From: Candidatus Schekmanbacteria bacterium
GTDB taxonomy: Bacteria; CSSED10-310; JACPHN01
Assembly (NCBI GenBank): GCA_016188575.1
Contig: JACPHN010000064.1
Location: forward strand, 1 to 47,732
Direction of reading: 5' to 3'
Length of the DNA: 47,732 nt
The position numbers were made by a program, and so were the translations under genes. Below the pieces are notes generated by a model. It was not told the DNA's origin, ran no database searches, and saw nothing but the letters and a program-made list of their open reading frames with translations. How positions within the stretch are numbered: position 1 is the first letter of the stretch; every line of letters begins with the position of its first letter. Of the stretch, positions 38,971 to 46,795 are shown in pieces.

Positions 38971-39798
38971 CTACGGCCGGCACCCCGAATCCGCAAACGG
39001 CCAGCGAATGCAGACGTAGTTGGTGCGTTCCTCCACGTTTCTCACGTTGGTTCTCGCCAGCCCGCTGACCATGAAACACACCTTCTCCCCCTCTCGCGGC
39101 CGCCACGTGTCAAGGGGCGGGACCTTGATGTGGTTTCCGCACACCGACGTCACGCTCTTGCACACCTGGCCCACGCGGAGCCACTCCCAGGTGCCCGCGT
39201 ACCATTTTTCCCCGAGCTGCACGAAGACCCACGGATTGGAGTTGACGACGGCGTCGCCGATTGTGACCCCCGGCCAGGAGCTGGCGCGGTCGTGGTCGAG
39301 GCAGATTTCGTTGCCGCTGAGCTGGACGCCGCCGAGATTGGACGTCTGCCGCCAGTTGGCGACATTGGTGTGCAGCCAGGTTACCGACCCGAGCGGCACT
39401 TCCTCCGGAGTCGCCGTCGGTGTTGGGGATCGCGTCGGGGTGCGGGTGGCGGTCGGGGTTGCAGTGGCGGTCGCGGTGCCGCCGGGGGGTGGGGTGGACG
39501 TCGCGGTGGCGGTCCACGTGGCGGTCGCGGTAGGCGTTTCAGTCGGAGTCTGCGTGGGGGTGTTTGTCGGCGTCGGGGTATCCGTGGGCGTGTTGGTGGG
39601 CGTCGGGGTGGGAGTGGGGGTCGGTGTCGAGGTTGGATGGAGCTTTTCGTCCACCCACTCGTACACGAAGTACTCGCAGCCGGAGCCGGCCACCGCGCAA
39701 CCGAGGGCGATCAGCAGCGCGCCGAGCGCTGCCGCGGAGCTTTTCGCCGCGCGGCGCTGCCGCGCGCCGCGCGGCGATTCGTACAGCGCCGTCGTCAT
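38971..39798 (-). CDS. Thr-Pro-repeat linker lipoprotein with C-terminal unknown domain
   Basis: 275 residues. The signal sequence ends CAVAGSGC, a lipobox. After a short region ([14 protein letters not shown]) comes a linker of about 80 residues built from TP, TA and NT dipeptides (residues ~55-135), as in cell-surface spacers. The C-terminal ~140 residues form a compact domain with several cysteines ([41 protein letters not shown]), probably disulphide-bonded outside the cell. The start overlaps the stop of the aldo/keto reductase (ATGA), so it closes the redox operon. A surface docking or substrate-binding role is possible but not shown. Confidence 0.8.
39420..39640 (-). repeat. Low-complexity repeat encoding the Thr-Pro linker
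   Basis: About 220 bases of degenerate GT/GGGGT-type short repeats on the plus strand, encoding TP/TA dipeptides on the minus strand. It is the kind of tract that changes length by slippage. Confidence 0.7.
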
Positions 39799-41051
39799 CC
39801 CAAAAATCTGCGCGCCAACGCCAGCCGCTCACCGATGTCGATCCGCTGGGGGCAGGCACCGGCCGCCACCGCGTAGTCGTCGGTGTCCAGCGGGCGCCGA
39901 TCCTCGGGAATCGCGCGGTAGGTCGCCCGCCCACGCGCGAGGTCACCATAGGCTTCGGCGTACATCAGCGCTCGCAAGGTATCGGCGACCCGCACGCCGC
40001 GCGGCGCGGCCGGCTCGCAGCGGCTGGCGCATCCCTCGCAGCACAGGTGGGCGGTCGCCGCGGCGATCTGCTGCAGTTGGCGCCGCTCGCCGTGCGACAG
40101 CGACGCCGAGGATTTTGCTGCCGCCACGTTCTCCGCAAGCTTCTCGGTATTCTCCATATCCGCGACCGCCGCCGCGATGCGCTCGTCTTCCCACACTGAC
40201 TTCAGCTTCGCCTGCGCGAGCGAGAAGCTCTGGGACTGAAAGCCGACCACCGCTTCGTCGCGGCGCGGAACCGACCGCTGCACCTTCATTGCAAGCAGCC
40301 CGATACCTGCCTTCGCGCAGCGATCCATCGCTCGGTTGAGCTCGACATCGCCGTATTTCCCGAAGTTGTAGCGGAACATGATGGCGTCTATCCCACCGCC
40401 GGCCGCGGCCTTTTCGAGCAGCTCCACGACGCGGCCTCCATGCGCGGAAAACCCGAAGAAGCGCGTCTTGCCACTGCGCCGCAGGCGATCGCCCATCTTC
40501 AGGTACTCCGGCGCGAGAAAGAGCGGATCGTCGACATAGTGCATGAAGTACATGTCCAGGTAATCCGTGCGGAGCTGGGCGAGGCAGAGGTCGAGGTCGC
40601 TCGCGAATTTCTCGGGGGTGGCATTGTCGCTCGGACCCTTGGAGGTGATCCACAGCTTCTTGCGATCTCCGACTTGTTCGATGAACGGTGCCAGCGTCGC
40701 GTGAGATTGGCCGCCGGCGTATTCGAGCGCGGTATCGACATAGTCGACCCCCTCCTTGAAGGCGCGGTGCAGCGTCTTGTCATAGCGCGCATCGAACGTG
40801 CGTGCGCCCCCCATCAGCAGGATCGGCACCGTAGCCCCCGTGCCGCCGAGCTTCCGGCGCGGAACGCGATCGCCCTCGTGGCGATCCCCGGCAGCGTCGG
40901 AGCGCGGCGTCACCGGCTTCGCGGCGCCGGTGTCATCGGCCCGCGACGGCGTGCTCAGGCCGGCGGCACACGCCGCTCCCGCCCCGGAAATCAGCCGCAG
41001 GAACTGGCGGCGCGTGGCACCTCCGTCGTCGCATCGACTCGTCTTCGTCAC
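39795..41051 (-). CDS. Tat-exported aldo/keto reductase with C-terminal Cys cluster
   Basis: 418 residues. The GTG at 41051 is preferred, six bases after AGGAGG; the ATG at 41057 abuts it. The twin-arginine signal is [19 protein letters not shown]. The AKR barrel keeps the tetrad: Asp and Tyr in DTALEYAGG, Lys in LWITSKG and His in YFMHYVDDP. The end has [16 protein letters not shown] and a later GACPQRI, a Cys cluster suited to a 4Fe-4S centre as in other ferredoxin-tailed AKRs. Export by Tat with cofactor fits an enzyme acting outside the cytoplasm, perhaps fed by electrons from the polyferredoxin encoded 16 bases upstream rather than by NADPH. The substrate is unknown. Confidence 0.86.
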
Positions 41052-41067
41052 CTTCATCCTCCTCGAG

Positions 41068-42777
41068 TTATTGGCCTGGCGTTGCGGGCAAAGCCGCGCC
41101 TGGCGAGGCCGCCGGCGCGTCCCCGGCACCCGCCTGGGCCGCGAGCACCGATCGCCGCCGCAACAGCAGCCGGCGCGCCGCCGATCGCGTCTCCCCGACG
41201 GCGGTCACATAGACCGCGCGGGACGCCGTTACCGGGCACTCGCTCTGGCATATCCCACAGCCGATGCACAGGTCAGGCACGACGAATGGCTTGTTGAGCA
41301 ACACGCGCTGACCGAAGGCGTCAATGACTTCCTCGTCCTCGGTCTGAATCGCTTTCGGGCTGACCGGGCAAACCTCCTCACAGACTACGCACGGAATCTG
41401 CATGGCGTGCGGCAGACAGCGCCCGCGGTCGAAGAACGCCGTCCCAAGCGCGAGCGGACCGCGGCTCCGATACGGCCCCCGACCCAGCTTCTCCTCCACC
41501 GTAATCCGCCGAATCGCGCCGGTCGGGCACACTTCACTGCACAGCGTGCACGTGAGCTGGCAATGCCCAAGGTTGAACACCATCACCGGCGTCCACAGGC
41601 CTTCGGGTCCCGCGATGTCCAGCCCGGCCGGCTGCAACACGTTGGTGGGACAAACCTTGAGGCACTGCTCACACTTGATGCACTTCTTCAGGAATTCGCC
41701 TTCTTCCACCGATCCCGGCGGGCGAATCAGCCCGGGCGAGTAGCTCGCATCCGTATTCAGGCCATTGTTCTTGAGTAATGGGAACGCGAGCATGCCGAGG
41801 GCGCCGGTAAACAGCAACTGCCGCCGGCCAAAGTCCGGCGTTGCGACGACCTGCTCGGGATCCTGGCGCAGCGCAGTGAATCGCAGCGCATCCTCGGGGC
41901 AGTCGTCGATGCAGCTCATGCAGGCGAAGCACTCGCTCAGCCGCAGTTGCCCCGCCGGGTCCGCGGCGCCCTCGCAGCGAGTCAGGCACAGGTTGCAGTT
42001 GGTGCACGCACTGGCATCGCGGTTGATGCGAAAGAGCGCCAGCCGCGACAGGACGCCGAGAAACGCCCCGAGCGGACACAGGGTTCGGCAAAAAAATCGC
42101 GGCACGACGACGTTCAGAGCGACGAGCGTAACGAGCAGCGCGCCAATCCAGAACGACCCGATGAAGGCGCGCGGCTCCCCCGCCGGCGCGAGCTTCACAG
42201 CCGCGAGCGCGGGCAGGTCGAGCCCGGCGCCGGCGAGAGCCGATCGCGTCCCGTCCACCACCCCGTCGAACATCGGCGCAATCGCTGTCGCGAACGACCG
42301 GTGGAGCAAGCAGATCGGGTCCAGCAATCCGACTTGCAGACTGCCGAACGCCGCCAGCACGACGAACACGCCCAGGCCCACGTATTTCAGCGCAAAGATC
42401 GGACGATACCGATTCGCCGCCCAGCGCTCGCGGTGGCTCCTGACGTTGAACAGCCAGCCGATGAGCTGGTGAAGCGAGCCGTACGGGCAGATCCAGTTGC
42501 AGAAGACCCGCCCAAACAGCACGGTCGCGGCGATGATCAGGACCGCCGCGCCGAGGAACCGATAGACGTACCCGGTCGACAGCAACGTCGTCGTGAAAAC
42601 GAGCGGGTCGAGCTCAAGAAACCGCGACACCGGATAGCCCCCGAGCCGCGAGGTCCACGTCGCCCAGGCCGCACCTACGAACAGCCCGAAAAACACCGCC
42701 TGTGAGGCGATGCGCGCGTTCGTGATGCGCAGCATCTGGCGGATCCTGGGGACGGGGTTGCGCGCGCGGGCCATCAT
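41068..42777 (-). CDS. NapH/MauN-like membrane polyferredoxin
   Basis: 569 residues. Four membrane helices lie in the first ~215 residues (IASQAVFFGLFVGAAWATW, FLGAAVLIIAATVLFG, YVGLGVFVVLAAFG, IGALLVTLVALNVVV). They carry the NapH/NosR-type cysteine motifs FCNWICPYGSLHQ and FCRTLCPLGAFLG. The second half holds several ferredoxin motifs: CTNCNLCLTRC, CFACMSCIDDCP, CIKCEQCLKVCP, CTLCSEVCP, CVVCEEVCPV and CIGCGICQSECPV. It should carry electrons across or along the inner membrane from the quinone pool or a ferredoxin. A hydrophobic stretch preceded by GRRQLLFTGALG lies in the middle, possibly an internal anchor. The start overlaps the DUF362 stop (ATGA). Confidence 0.9.
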   Translation of the reverse strand: MMARARNPVPRIRQMLRITNARIASQAVFFGLFVGAAWATWTSRLGGYPVSRFLELDPLVFTTTLLSTGYVYRFLGAAVLIIAATVLFGRVFCNWICPYGSLHQLIGWLFNVRSHRERWAANRYRPIFALKYVGLGVFVVLAAFGSLQVGLLDPICLLHRSFATAIAPMFDGVVDGTRSALAGAGLDLPALAAVKLAPAGEPRAFIGSFWIGALLVTLVALNVVVPRFFCRTLCPLGAFLGVLSRLALFRINRDASACTNCNLCLTRCEGAADPAGQLRLSECFACMSCIDDCPEDALRFTALRQDPEQVVATPDFGRRQLLFTGALGMLAFPLLKNNGLNTDASYSPGLIRPPGSVEEGEFLKKCIKCEQCLKVCPTNVLQPAGLDIAGPEGLWTPVMVFNLGHCQLTCTLCSEVCPTGAIRRITVEEKLGRGPYRSRGPLALGTAFFDRGRCLPHAMQIPCVVCEEVCPVSPKAIQTEDEEVIDAFGQRVLLNKPFVVPDLCIGCGICQSECPVTASRAVYVTAVGETRSAARRLLLRRRSVLAAQAGAGDAPAASPGAALPATPGQ

Positions 42778-43814
42778 GCGATCTCGCGCACCCGCCCCTC
42801 GGTGGAGGCGCTGCCCGTTCCTTTTTCCTCGGCGAGCAGCAGATATCGCGGCAGCTCGGTGGTCCGGGACAGCAGGTGGCGATACGCCCACGCGTCGGCC
42901 GCAACGGGGTCCACGGCCGCCACGACGGCGTCGCCCGGCCGCACGTCCGCCGGGTCGCCGCCGGTCGGACCGTTGCGCATGAGCACGTATGTTCCGTCCA
43001 GGATCGTCAGGGTCGGCCGAATCATGAGGGACAGATCCGACACGAGCTCGTGGATGTCCTGGTGGAACTGATTCCTGCGGCCCCCGAGCAGGCCGTACCA
43101 GTTCTTCATCCCCATGGACGCCAGACACAGATTGTGGTCTTTCACGGGCGCGACGCCGATCACCTTGTTCGCGTTCGTCAGCGGCCGGTGGAAGAACTGC
43201 CAGTTCTCGATCAGGCGCGAATCGGGCGTATTGAGTATGCGAAAGGCATTGGCATCCGGCAAGTAGACTCTGCCGCCGGCGCTCGCGACCGCCGCGGCGA
43301 TCCCCGACTTCGCGAAGCAATCCGCGGGCGATTCGATGGGATTGTCGGCCACCCGGACTTCCTGGGCGCGACAGTCCACCAGGATCAGGCGAATCAGCGC
43401 CGCGAGGATCTCGGGGTTCGTGGTGGCCGCAAGCACCGGCGCCCGGTCAAAAGCGACATTCGGCTTGAGGAGCACGATGTCGCCAGGGGAAACGTAGTGG
43501 GCCAGCCCGCCGAGCGCGTCGAGCGCCTTGCGCAGCCGCGTCATCGCGTCGCCGCCGTGGCCGACTGCGACGTCGGGTGCGCCCACCGGTTTCGCCACCC
43601 GAAAATCGGTCAGGCGAAAGGGCTTGACGGCCGGCACGCTGCGCAGGCCGTCCGCGTCCCGCGCCGCGCCGGGCCAGTCCTCCGGAGCATACGCGGCGTA
43701 GGCCGCGGCCGACGTCACGCCGGCAGCGCCCAGCGCGCGCGTCAGAAATGCCCGCCGCGTCAGTTGCCGCGGCGCGCCGGCAGGCTCACCCGCAGGTCGT
43801 TCACGCCGTGCCAT
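42774..43814 (-). CDS. DUF362 protein with Tat signal
   Basis: 346 residues. The start at 43814 overlaps the previous gene by 14 bases. The twin-arginine signal is LTRRAFLTRALGAAGVTSAAAYAAYA. The domain matches DUF362: VAVGHGGDAMTRLRKALDALGG, GDIVLLKPNVAFDRAP, TNPEILAALIRLILVDC, PVKDHNLCLASMGMKNWYG, IHELVSDLSLMIRPTLTILDG and GDAVVAAVDPVAADAWAY. DUF362 proteins often occur with ferredoxins; no ferredoxin motif is fused here, but a polyferredoxin is encoded next. The catalytic role of the family is not established. Confidence 0.86.
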   Translation of the reverse strand: MARRERPAGEPAGAPRQLTRRAFLTRALGAAGVTSAAAYAAYAPEDWPGAARDADGLRSVPAVKPFRLTDFRVAKPVGAPDVAVGHGGDAMTRLRKALDALGGLAHYVSPGDIVLLKPNVAFDRAPVLAATTNPEILAALIRLILVDCRAQEVRVADNPIESPADCFAKSGIAAAVASAGGRVYLPDANAFRILNTPDSRLIENWQFFHRPLTNANKVIGVAPVKDHNLCLASMGMKNWYGLLGGRRNQFHQDIHELVSDLSLMIRPTLTILDGTYVLMRNGPTGGDPADVRPGDAVVAAVDPVAADAWAYRHLLSRTTELPRYLLLAEEKGTGSASTEGRVREIA

Positions 43815-44937
43815 GCGCGAGCGCCTCCCGCAGCTCCGCCATCGCGGCGTCCGCGCGCTGCCGGGATTCCGCCGCATCGATTCCGAACACGATCGCGCCG
43901 GCGGAACCAACGGCGAAAAATGTGTGCAACACCTGATGCTCCATCACGGTCCACGATCCGGCCGGCGCCACCGTACGGTACTCGTATTCCTGCTCGCCCA
44001 GGAAGCGTTCCAGCAGCTTCTGCGCCGCGGCGGAATCGCCGGCGTCGTGAAGGAAGTAGCGCGCCTGATCGCCCGCCGCGGGCTTTCCGGCGAACCAGAA
44101 GTCGCGCAGGAACCCGAGCTGAAACACATCCTGTCGCTCGTATGTGACGCTGCCGGGCGTGACGCCCGGCGCGGCACCGGAGAGCAGCCTGTAGAGGTGC
44201 GGCACGGCCGCTGCCATCTCCGGCAGCGCCGCCAGCGCTGCCAGGACGGCGCGCGCCTTGGCCACCACGGCGCTGCCGGGCGCGCTGCCGACGATCTTGA
44301 CGTAGCGCGCGCCGACGACCCCAATCGCGCCTACCTGGGTTTCGTAGTAGCGCGCGCCTGCGGACTCCGTTACGGGCGCTGTCGCACCGCGCTGCGCCGC
44401 GAAGATGCCGAGGGCATTGGCGAAGGTGGCGTGATCGTAGAGCTCGACGGTCAGCGAGTCGCCGCCATTGGCGAGCGCGGCGAAGGCCATGCCGCGGCAA
44501 CCGAAGCTGAGATACTGCTCGGCGGCGCCATCGATCTTTTCGAACAAGGTGTCAGGAGTGTACGTCTCGACGCCCTTCTCGAGCCGCCACCCGCCGGCAA
44601 GAATCTCGGGTGGGAACGGCGCCAGGTTCATCTCCCGCCCTCCCACCGCTTGCGCCGGAAGGTGCATCTCCCGCCCTCCCCCCGTTTGCGGGGGGAGGTT
44701 CGGTGGGGGGTCTTCGTGATACAGTTGGTCAGGCATGCTCGACTCCGCGACCGCCGGCGGCGGCAGGAACTGGTCTCGCGCCCGGCCATCCGCACCGCGT
44801 CCGGCGACCCACAGGCAGACGCCGATGAGGCCGAGCCCGCAGCAGATCGTTGCCGCGATCTCACCGCCGCCGACATGACGGCGGAGCACCTTGCGCGGCA
44901 GGGGGTTGAACAGTCTGTGGGGGTCGAATCGTCGCAT
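43801..44937 (-). CDS. DUF6599-like exported/anchored protein with in-frame repeat insertion
   Basis: 378 residues. The ATG at 44937 is preferred (GGGGAAG upstream) over the GTG at 44955. A basic N-terminus and one helix (EIAATICCGLGLIGVCLWVAG) anchor it in the inner membrane. Residues ~75-105 are encoded by a palindromic repeat (NLPPQTGGGREMHLP, AQAVGGREMNLAP), apparently inserted in frame. The main domain has LFEKIDGAAEQYLSFGCRGMAFA and YDHATFANALGIFAAQRG, which I associate with DUF6599, a family seen beside DUF362 and Fe-S genes. It is the first gene of the redox operon behind the promoter at 45007-45035. The function is unknown. Confidence 0.75.
   Translation of the reverse strand: MRRFDPHRLFNPLPRKVLRRHVGGGEIAATICCGLGLIGVCLWVAGRGADGRARDQFLPPPAVAESSMPDQLYHEDPPPNLPPQTGGGREMHLPAQAVGGREMNLAPFPPEILAGGWRLEKGVETYTPDTLFEKIDGAAEQYLSFGCRGMAFAALANGGDSLTVELYDHATFANALGIFAAQRGATAPVTESAGARYYETQVGAIGVVGARYVKIVGSAPGSAVVAKARAVLAALAALPEMAAAVPHLYRLLSGAAPGVTPGSVTYERQDVFQLGFLRDFWFAGKPAAGDQARYFLHDAGDSAAAQKLLERFLGEQEYEYRTVAPAGSWTVMEHQVLHTFFAVGSAGAIVFGIDAAESRQRADAAMAELREALAHGTA
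44624..44720 (+). repeat. Dispersed palindromic repeat, copy B (tandem, inside a gene)
   Basis: Two near-identical 36-base units at 44624-44659 and 44660-44695 share CATCTCCCGCCCTCCC. The second contains a perfect 9-bp inverted repeat, CCTCCCCCC/GGGGGGAGG at 44675-44698, with a 6-base loop. The block ends GGTTCGGTGGGGGG, TCTTCGTGAT, the same end as copy A at 23602-23658. It lies within the DUF6599-like gene without breaking the frame. Confidence 0.65.
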
Positions 44938-45329: not shown

Positions 45330-46499
45330 TCACCACGAGCCAATCCGCGCCATCAACGCGGCGGTGCCTGCGCGAAACGCTGCTTCCTCGACGATGAGGC
45401 TCAAGACGATGTGACCCGCAGGCAAGTCGAAGAAGTACCCCGGCTGAACCCACACGCCGGCATGGTGCGCCAAATCGGCGCACGCTTCATCCGCATCCAT
45501 GACCACGGGGATGCGAACGATGGCGGACCAGCCCCCCTCGGCATCGAGGATGCGGCACGGACCCGACGTGCCGAGCGCGGCGCGCAAGCTCTCCAGATTC
45601 GCGGTCAGGCGCCGCCCGATCGCGGCAACGACCGCGGAGCGCAGCGACAGCAACGCCGGCAACGCCACCTGCACCGGCGTGCCCACCGACAGGTAGGTGT
45701 CCGCGACGAGCTCCAGGCCCTCGCGCACCCGCGCGCGCGCCGCCGGATCCCCGGACATGACGATCCAACCCAGCTTGAGCTGAGGACAGGCGAGGAGCTT
45801 CGACAGGCCGCCGAGAGAAAAGCCGAGGCTCCCCGTAACCCTGCCCGCCAGGGTGGGGACGCAATCGGCATCGCGCGGCCGCAATGGAAAGTCAGCGAAG
45901 ACCTCGTCACTCACGACAGCAATCCCGTGCACCCTGGCGAGGCGATCCAGCGCGCTCACCTCCGCCGCCTTGAGGTAGCTTCCCGTGGGGTTGTTGGGCC
46001 CTACGGCGATGATCGCGCGCGCGCCGCCCCGCACCCCGCGCTCGACGCTTTCCAGATCGATGCACCAGCGATCCAGGTCATAGACGAGCCCATAGCTGCT
46101 CGCGTCTACGCCGTCCAACTGGAGCAGGTGCGTAAACAACGGATAGCTCGGCGTCGGAACCAGCACTCGTTCGCCGGGATCCGCCAGCAACTTGAGCAGG
46201 AAGCTGTACGCCTCGCTCGTGCTCGCGGTCAGCGCGACGTCGCGCGGCTCCACCGCGACCCCGTGCACCCCGGCGTAGTACGCGCAGACCGCCTCGCGGG
46301 CCTCGAGGCGCCCGAACGATTCGGGCTCGTACGCGGCTACCCGCGGATCGTCCAGCGCCGCGCGGATGTCCGCCGCCGGCAGCGGCAACCCGACTCTTGT
46401 CGGGTTGCTGACCGTCAGGTCGATGACCCGGTCACCCACCGCGGCGCGCAGGCCCGCCAGGGCGTTCGGCATCAGACGCGGAATGCGGTGGGAAATCAT
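45330..46499 (-). CDS. PLP-dependent class I/II aminotransferase
   Basis: 389 residues. It has the fold-type I pattern: VIDLTVSNPTRVGLPLP, LTASTSEAYSFLLKLLADPGERVLVPTPSYPLF, IAVGPNNPTGSYL, VVSDEVFADFPL, and the PLP lysine in FSLGGLSKLLACPQLKLGWI. Its N-terminal region reads like alanine/aspartate-type transaminases of family I, but the amino donor cannot be told. The ATG at 46499 with GAGGACGG upstream is preferred over an ATG 10 codons earlier. It stands between the redox operon and a decayed region, with no obvious pathway partner. Confidence 0.88.
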   Translation of the reverse strand: MISHRIPRLMPNALAGLRAAVGDRVIDLTVSNPTRVGLPLPAADIRAALDDPRVAAYEPESFGRLEAREAVCAYYAGVHGVAVEPRDVALTASTSEAYSFLLKLLADPGERVLVPTPSYPLFTHLLQLDGVDASSYGLVYDLDRWCIDLESVERGVRGGARAIIAVGPNNPTGSYLKAAEVSALDRLARVHGIAVVSDEVFADFPLRPRDADCVPTLAGRVTGSLGFSLGGLSKLLACPQLKLGWIVMSGDPAARARVREGLELVADTYLSVGTPVQVALPALLSLRSAVVAAIGRRLTANLESLRAALGTSGPCRILDAEGGWSAIVRIPVVMDADEACADLAHHAGVWVQPGYFFDLPAGHIVLSLIVEEAAFRAGTAALMARIGSW

Positions 46500-46795
46500 G
46501 ATGAGTTGCCGTCCTCGGAGGGGCACCATCTGCCCGCGGTGCTACAGGCTACCGGGGGCCGACCTGTGCCCCGTGCGGAAACCGCACCGCGCGTCCAGGC
46601 AAAAGCTGCTCTCCGAGCGCCTCTGAGGGCGGATTGGCCAGCGCGGTCTCCGGATCTCATCGTAGCACCGCAGGGCAAAGGATCGCAGCAGAATCAACCT
46701 TTCCTCGCCGGCGGGGACCGCGCGACCCACCGGCTCCGCGCCACCCGCGCCTGGACGCGCCCGGTGCGGCATTCCAGCATCGCCGCCATGCAGCC

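Follow-up and report, generated by a model that had tools for sequence, protein, structure and literature searches.

The described enzyme closest to the locus reported here is the lactate racemase LarA, in which, according to PMC12611868, a lysine holds the nickel-pincer nucleotide (NPN) cofactor covalently, a histidine completes the nickel coordination and His108 and His174 serve as the acid/base pair. The same work describes single-histidine LarA-type enzymes (9q3j and 9q3k), two-domain proteins that keep His108 and lack the His174 position. DUF362 and the LarA family DUF2088 belong to a common Pfam clan, and DUF362 forms the outgroup in a LarA tree (PMC11770544). In a 2024 study (PMC11796402), larB, larE and larC were found without larA in about 15% of the genomes analysed, cyanobacteria were said probably to produce NPN for a protein still to be identified, and an E. 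coli co-expression system for NPN work was presented. Other described systems that resemble parts of the locus are the NapG and NapH quinol dehydrogenase ferredoxins, the Fe–S aldo/keto reductases and the DUF362 proteins that carry a C-terminal ferredoxin (PF04015 plus Fer4). Our literature search, with subscription papers and preprints mostly outside its reach, found nothing on the operon or on NPN in DUF362 proteins, nothing naming DUF6599 and nothing joining aldo-keto reductase, twin-arginine and polyferredoxin.

The DNA analysed, referred to here as the window, is a 47,732-nucleotide stretch of contig JACPHN010000064.1 from a Candidatus Schekmanbacteria bacterium. Reading of its open reading frames placed five minus-strand genes, touching closely or overlapping, at positions 38971–44937 (Table 1). 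The DUF6599 and DUF362 genes overlap by 14 nt, the DUF362 and polyferredoxin genes by 4 nt and the aldo/keto reductase (AKR) and lipoprotein genes by 4 nt (ATGA), with a 10-nt gap between polyferredoxin and AKR; the compact five-gene set described in an earlier note on this DNA is thus present. The set is more than a chance arrangement: its first four genes occur as a group in distant phyla as well, without the fifth.

Table 1 Genes of the locus, with positions in the window
Gene product	Position	Strand	Start and stop	Pfam evidence
DUF6599 protein	43801..44937	-	ATG 44937, stop 43801	PF20244, E 5.9e-25
DUF362 protein, predicted to be Tat-exported, with modelled LarA N-domain fold	42774..43814	-	ATG 43814, stop 42774	PF04015
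NapH-NapG-like fusion polyferredoxin	41068..42777	-	ATG 42777, stop 41068	several Fer4 families
Aldo/keto reductase (AKR), predicted to be Tat-exported, with C-terminal Cys cluster	39795..41057	-	ATG 41057, stop 39795	PF00248
Thr-Pro-rich lipoprotein	38971..39798	-	ATG 39798, stop 38971	no Pfam match over cut-off

Named genomes were scanned with five aligned DUF362 proteins, the best 80 of the 359 matches were taken as the set of loci, and genes up to 5.5 kb away from the DUF362 gene, if encoded on its strand, were counted as neighbours. The earlier note had raised the question of whether these genes co-occur elsewhere, and they do: among the best 80 of 359 loci, 74 have DUF6599 near DUF362, 69 have the polyferredoxin and 57 have the AKR. 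By record title, the carriers among these 80 loci include Acidobacteriota, Planctomycetota, Verrucomicrobiota, Hydrogenedentota, SAR324 and Desulfobacterales, together with Lentisphaerae, Rokubacteria, Wallbacteria, Armatimonadetes, Sumerlaeota, Gemmatimonadaceae and others. The commonest order in the same set was DUF6599-DUF362-polyferredoxin-AKR (38 loci), and an AKR-DUF6599-DUF362-polyferredoxin order was seen in 13 loci whose titles are mostly Verrucomicrobia. Contig ends lie close to many of the neighbours that are missing from the 80 loci. Intergenic distances within the module have medians of 16–33 nt, and between the four proteins the pairwise identities show correlations with r of 0.88–0.94 (none of 1000 permutations was as high for any pair), as expected if the four genes travel together. 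Across the best 80 of 359 loci, any further neighbour that might name a substrate recurs at most 4 times, and as this holds for all other families the four genes seem to form a module complete in itself. Most of the neighbours recurring up to 4 times come from the same four records (L045, L046, L048 and L055). DUF6599, a Tat-type DUF362 protein, a NapH-NapG-like polyferredoxin and a Tat-type AKR are therefore a conserved operon across many phyla. An Arg-Arg pair was present in 80 of 80 DUF362 and 51 of 51 AKR sequences, which agrees with the export that the earlier note had predicted; for these counts, as for those of the DUF362 triad and the polyferredoxin Cys columns, sequences had to exceed a length limit and contain no N.

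The DUF362 protein of the window (346 aa) matched PF04015 with 137.2 bits (cut-off 24; E 9.9e-40 to 1.3e-39), which was its sole match at E up to 10, with no match to Lar_N (PF09861). A sequence search of the PDB with this protein gave no relatives, and profile-profile comparison of the operon DUF362 (Neff 2.9) with LarA gave no match; the link to LarA comes from structure and from more diverse DUF362 proteins. An AlphaFold2 model, computed from an alignment of 50 of the 80 DUF362 sequences, had a pLDDT of 93.3, and when it was compared with the PDB using Foldseek the best 15 matches were all titled as LarA-family proteins, the 16th being 4nar, which is from Thermotoga and has no function in its title. 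VIA-align gave Z values of 15.5–17.1 against 10 LarA-family entries and 14.7 against 4nar (205–209 residues, rmsd 2.8–3.3 Å), and the next unrelated fold reached a Z of 5.3. The match to LarA ends at model residue 317–319, equivalent to about LarA residue 265–271, and the C-terminal substrate domain is therefore absent from DUF362. As modelled, the DUF362 protein is a "half-LarA" with the fold of the LarA cofactor domain.

Within this fold, H227, K237 and H251 are invariant in all 80 DUF362 sequences (the best 80 of 359). An exact His-x9-Lys-x15-His pattern was found in 15 of the 20 LarA-type proteins that we fetched, and a LarA profile placed the triad residue by residue on the DUF362 relatives L207, L205 and L206 (E-values of 0.00094, 0.01 and 0.21, respectively). 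The motif KxHx9K followed by His is kept in 30 of 30 strong DUF362 matches from diverse genomes, 27 of which carry a ferredoxin motif of their own. We take the NPN-linking lysine and the nickel-binding histidine of LarA to be Lys184 and His200. H227, K237 and H251 are thus a candidate NPN-binding triad, the equivalence for the window protein being suggested by motif and spacing. We found no conserved counterpart of LarA His108: the only histidines present in at least 85% of the 80 DUF362 sequences are H227, H251 and H255. Since the His174 position is kept without a conserved His108, it is improbable that DUF362 works as an ordinary racemase with two bases. It shares the loss of one acid/base histidine with the single-histidine enzymes 9q3j and 9q3k, but the histidine retained is a different one (PMC12611868). 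The statement in the earlier note that DUF362 has no known chemistry can now be replaced, as the LarA fold and the cofactor triad give a chemical lead.

The genes larB, larC and larE serve NPN biosynthesis. Across 290 genomes, DUF362 was present in 165, LarC in 156 and both in 126, giving an odds ratio of 10, although the genomes are not phylogenetically independent and Fisher tests overstate their independence. A Lar_N match weaker than about E 1e-10, as seen in 19 genomes, was not taken as LarA, since some of these matches fall within DUF362 genes. Where no strong LarA was present, 20 of 21 genomes with close-type DUF362 (A4 match at E 1e-60 or lower) had LarC, against 30 of 54 that had other DUF362 only and 19 of 105 that had no DUF362; LarC was present in 40 of all 44 genomes at the same A4 threshold. 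The association of DUF362 with LarC was similar in a one-genome-per-family subset and in a POR-positive subset that still includes 4 POR-negative genomes, POR (PF01558) being a weak control for anaerobes as it occurs in 266 of the 290 genomes. Sixteen genomes carry the closest DUF362, by an A4 threshold of E 1.1e-95 or lower that was set after the data had been seen. Among these, LarC and LarB were found in 16 of 16 and LarE over its cut-off in 15, strong LarA was absent from 7, and a polyferredoxin adjoins DUF362 in 15, DUF362 of the genome G194 lying at a contig end. The single LarE exception is an 83% complete genome. The genome of the window itself encodes LarB, LarC, LarE and one LarA-type gene, and in G238 a Fe–S DUF362 gene overlaps a LarC-type gene. 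As for controls, Synechococcus elongatus and Haloferax volcanii have DUF362 and LarC with no Lar_N match, and Bacteroides ihuae has DUF362 without LarC. LarB was over its cut-off in just 3 of the 39 DUF362-positive, LarC-negative genomes. As LarC and LarB are both missing from 36 of the 165 DUF362 genomes, it is unlikely that every DUF362 protein depends on NPN, or else the cofactor is obtained otherwise; two close-type carriers, G052 (97% complete) and G061 (99%), are without LarB and LarC and have an intact triad (L195 and L201).

The operon protein therefore resembles LarA and its homologues in the modelled N-terminal cofactor-domain fold, in the His-x9-Lys-…-His triad and in the presence of LarB, LarC and LarE in the same genomes; unlike LarA it has neither the C-terminal substrate domain nor the second catalytic histidine. 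It is predicted to be Tat-exported and sits in a Fe–S operon; the known LarA enzymes are isomerases. With the DUF362 proteins of PF04015 plus Fer4 architecture it has the domain and the triad in common, but it is without a ferredoxin of its own, and the neighbouring polyferredoxin may replace the missing C-terminal ferredoxin.

The polyferredoxin of the window is NapH-like over residues 209–300 (TIGR02163, 87.9 bits against a cut-off of 213.05) and NapG-like over residues 336–524 (NF007012, 75.4 bits against a cut-off of 269). Both scores are far below the cut-offs, and we therefore describe it as a NapH-NapG-like fusion and a member of neither family. Hydropathy indicated membrane segments, and the protein has two CX3CP motifs and six ferredoxin-type Cys groups, the Cys columns being kept in 62–64 of 64 sequences. 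The succession of a membrane part with CX3CP and then ferredoxin clusters is shared with NapG and NapH, by analogy with which the second half of the protein should face the periplasm. In contrast to these, the operon protein is fused in one chain, and no Nap-type gene was among its recurrent neighbours.

The AKR matched PF00248 with 69.6 bits (cut-off 24; E 3.1e-19), and its residues were counted in 36 of the 51 AKR sequences. In the catalytic tetrad D108, Y113, K140 and H173, the first three are kept in 36 of 36 and the histidine in 35; in the C-terminal cluster, C340, C343 and C402 are kept in all 36 and C347 in 27, and these cysteines would be enough for a 4Fe-4S site. In comparison with solved AKRs, a conserved Ser is present in 34 of 36 sequences, the Asn that follows it has given way to Cys, Thr, Ser or Ala in all 36, and variation is seen at the phosphate-binding Lys/Arg positions; all of these positions belong to the NADPH site. 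A C-terminal Glu-Asn pair is partly retained. The earlier note had proposed a different electron donor for the AKR, and the lack of conservation at the 2'-phosphate residues favours this part of its argument, but the Asp-Tyr-Lys-His tetrad is kept and NADP binding is possible. Barrel, tetrad and C-terminal Cys cluster are shared with the Fe–S aldo/keto reductases, from which the operon AKR differs in its predicted Tat signal and in its fixed association with DUF6599, DUF362 and polyferredoxin.

The DUF6599 protein matched PF20244 with 88.3 bits (cut-off 27). Its AlphaFold2 model (mean pLDDT 86.6) has a membrane helix at residues 24–46 followed by two alpha/beta domains and gave VIA Z values of 11.6 against 1vr8 and 10.9 against 4esq, the second domain resembling 1vr8 and domains of PknH, TiME and RseB (Z 8–11.6). 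The protein thus models as an N-terminal anchor with two extracytoplasmic domains in a Mog1/PsbP/RseB-like arrangement; it may serve as a scaffold or sensor. Foldseek gave no match for this model at E up to 0.001, and a PDB sequence search with the protein gave no relatives. The Thr-Pro-rich lipoprotein was also considered as a fifth conserved member and was ruled out, its C-terminal domain having no relative in any other locus examined; the suggestion in the earlier note that it presents a substrate at the surface is not supported by those loci.

Taken together, we propose, at what we judge to be about an even chance, that the products of the first four genes make up a single redox complex facing the periplasm, with an NPN-loaded half-LarA, a polyferredoxin and a Fe–S AKR. 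DUF6599 would be its membrane-anchored scaffold or sensor, and the polyferredoxin would carry electrons between the quinone pool and an outside chain of iron-sulphur clusters. DUF362 would be loaded with NPN in the cytoplasm through Lys237 and His251, then exported by Tat, and would there carry out hydride chemistry linked to both the polyferredoxin and the Fe–S AKR, the latter acting as a second catalytic or relay subunit. Exchange of electrons between the polyferredoxin and DUF362 is suggested because the genes are coupled, the soluble partners are predicted to leave the cytoplasm by Tat, and a ferredoxin is built into most relatives of DUF362 while the operon encodes a separate one. We infer NPN occupancy, complex formation and electron transfer, which may run in either direction. 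The substrate is probably a 2-hydroxy acid, a 2-oxo acid or a sugar-type carbonyl.

The same four genes might instead encode a quinone-linked complex in which the DUF362 triad binds another nucleotide or metal, or nothing, with LarB, LarC and LarE co-occurring only because the genomes tend to be anaerobic and Lar-rich. The second histidine of LarA is missing in DUF362, and the 36 of 165 genomes without LarB and LarC, two of which keep the triad in close-type DUF362, would fit such a reading. We nevertheless regard it as rather unlikely, since without strong LarA the frequency of LarC still falls from 20/21 through 30/54 to 19/105 as close-type DUF362 gives way to other DUF362 and to neither, and the association stays within POR-positive genomes.

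Two other explanations centre on the AKR. The earlier note suggested that the polyferredoxin could deliver electrons to the exported AKR. On this reading the AKR would be the terminal reductase, fed directly, and accessory roles in assembly or substrate binding would fall to DUF362 and DUF6599. Retention of the tetrad and the Cys cluster is consistent with this, as are L022, L023 and L037, where the AKR adjoins DUF6599 without polyferredoxin. However, DUF362 is the most conserved soluble part, and no AKR was detected in L030 and L113, where the other three genes lie well inside the contig. A Fe–S cluster alone cannot deliver a hydride, and we consider direct feeding of the AKR improbable. Lastly, the AKR could be redox-neutral and exported with tightly bound NAD(P), as is known for the Tat-exported glucose-fructose oxidoreductase, making the operon a sugar-processing set without quinone linkage. 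Its tetrad is fully retained and its C-terminal Glu-Asn pair partly so, but the NADPH phosphate-binding positions are not conserved and the NapH-NapG-like polyferredoxin in 69 of the best 80 of 359 loci points to external electron transfer, which leaves this explanation very improbable.

Returning to the complex with a half-LarA, its LarA fold and triad make DUF362 a concrete candidate for the missing user of NPN. The wider proposal, that DUF362 proteins are the missing non-LarA NPN users and that the operon half-LarA is an exported redox enzyme, not a racemase, passing hydride between a substrate or the AKR and the polyferredoxin, is put forward tentatively, as somewhat less than an even prospect. 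If true, the half-LarA would be the first respiratory-type oxidoreductase to be based on NPN, the chemistry of this cofactor would reach beyond isomerases into exported electron transfer, and an operon that is widespread but unannotated would acquire a function.

The genes flanking the operon lie on the same strand (see the table). The putative lipoprotein encoded downstream gave zero matches in Pfam or NCBIfam. The top NCBIfam model for the PLP aminotransferase encoded upstream was GntC, from the guanitoxin pathway, at 137 bits, far under the cut-off of 415 bits.

Within the DUF6599 gene of the window, two near-identical copies of a GC-rich stretch of the GGGAGGGCGGGAGATG type were found. Because at least residues 92-95 of the protein, in the repeat region, correspond to a gap in 60 of the 62 aligned relatives, a small repeat may have been inserted in frame in this gene. 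Patterns of this type were not enriched in the window relative to shuffled sequence.

Features within the window and in loci from other genomes
Feature	Location	Strand	Remark
Putative lipoprotein, 619 aa	37044-38903	-	downstream of operon
GC-rich repeat pair, GGGAGGGCGGGAGATG type	44628-44700	-	within DUF6599 gene
PLP aminotransferase	45330-46529	-	upstream of operon
DUF6599-AKR pair	L022:1-1873		no DUF362 or polyferredoxin; short contig
DUF6599-AKR pair	L023:6605-8840		no DUF362 or polyferredoxin
DUF6599-AKR pair	L037:8082-10335		no DUF362 or polyferredoxin
Fe-S DUF362 gene overlapping LarC-type nickel insertion gene	L203:5180-7026	-	genome G238

The DUF6599-AKR pairs of L022, L023 and L037 possibly represent a smaller version of the module. 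DUF6599 also has a roughly 300-aa Tat protein as its neighbour in four further loci (L032-L035), where the match to the DUF362 profile is weak (19-30 bits), and in L038, where the similarly sized Tat protein is DUF362-like by visual judgement only. Pairing of DUF6599 with DUF362 may constitute a basic unit.
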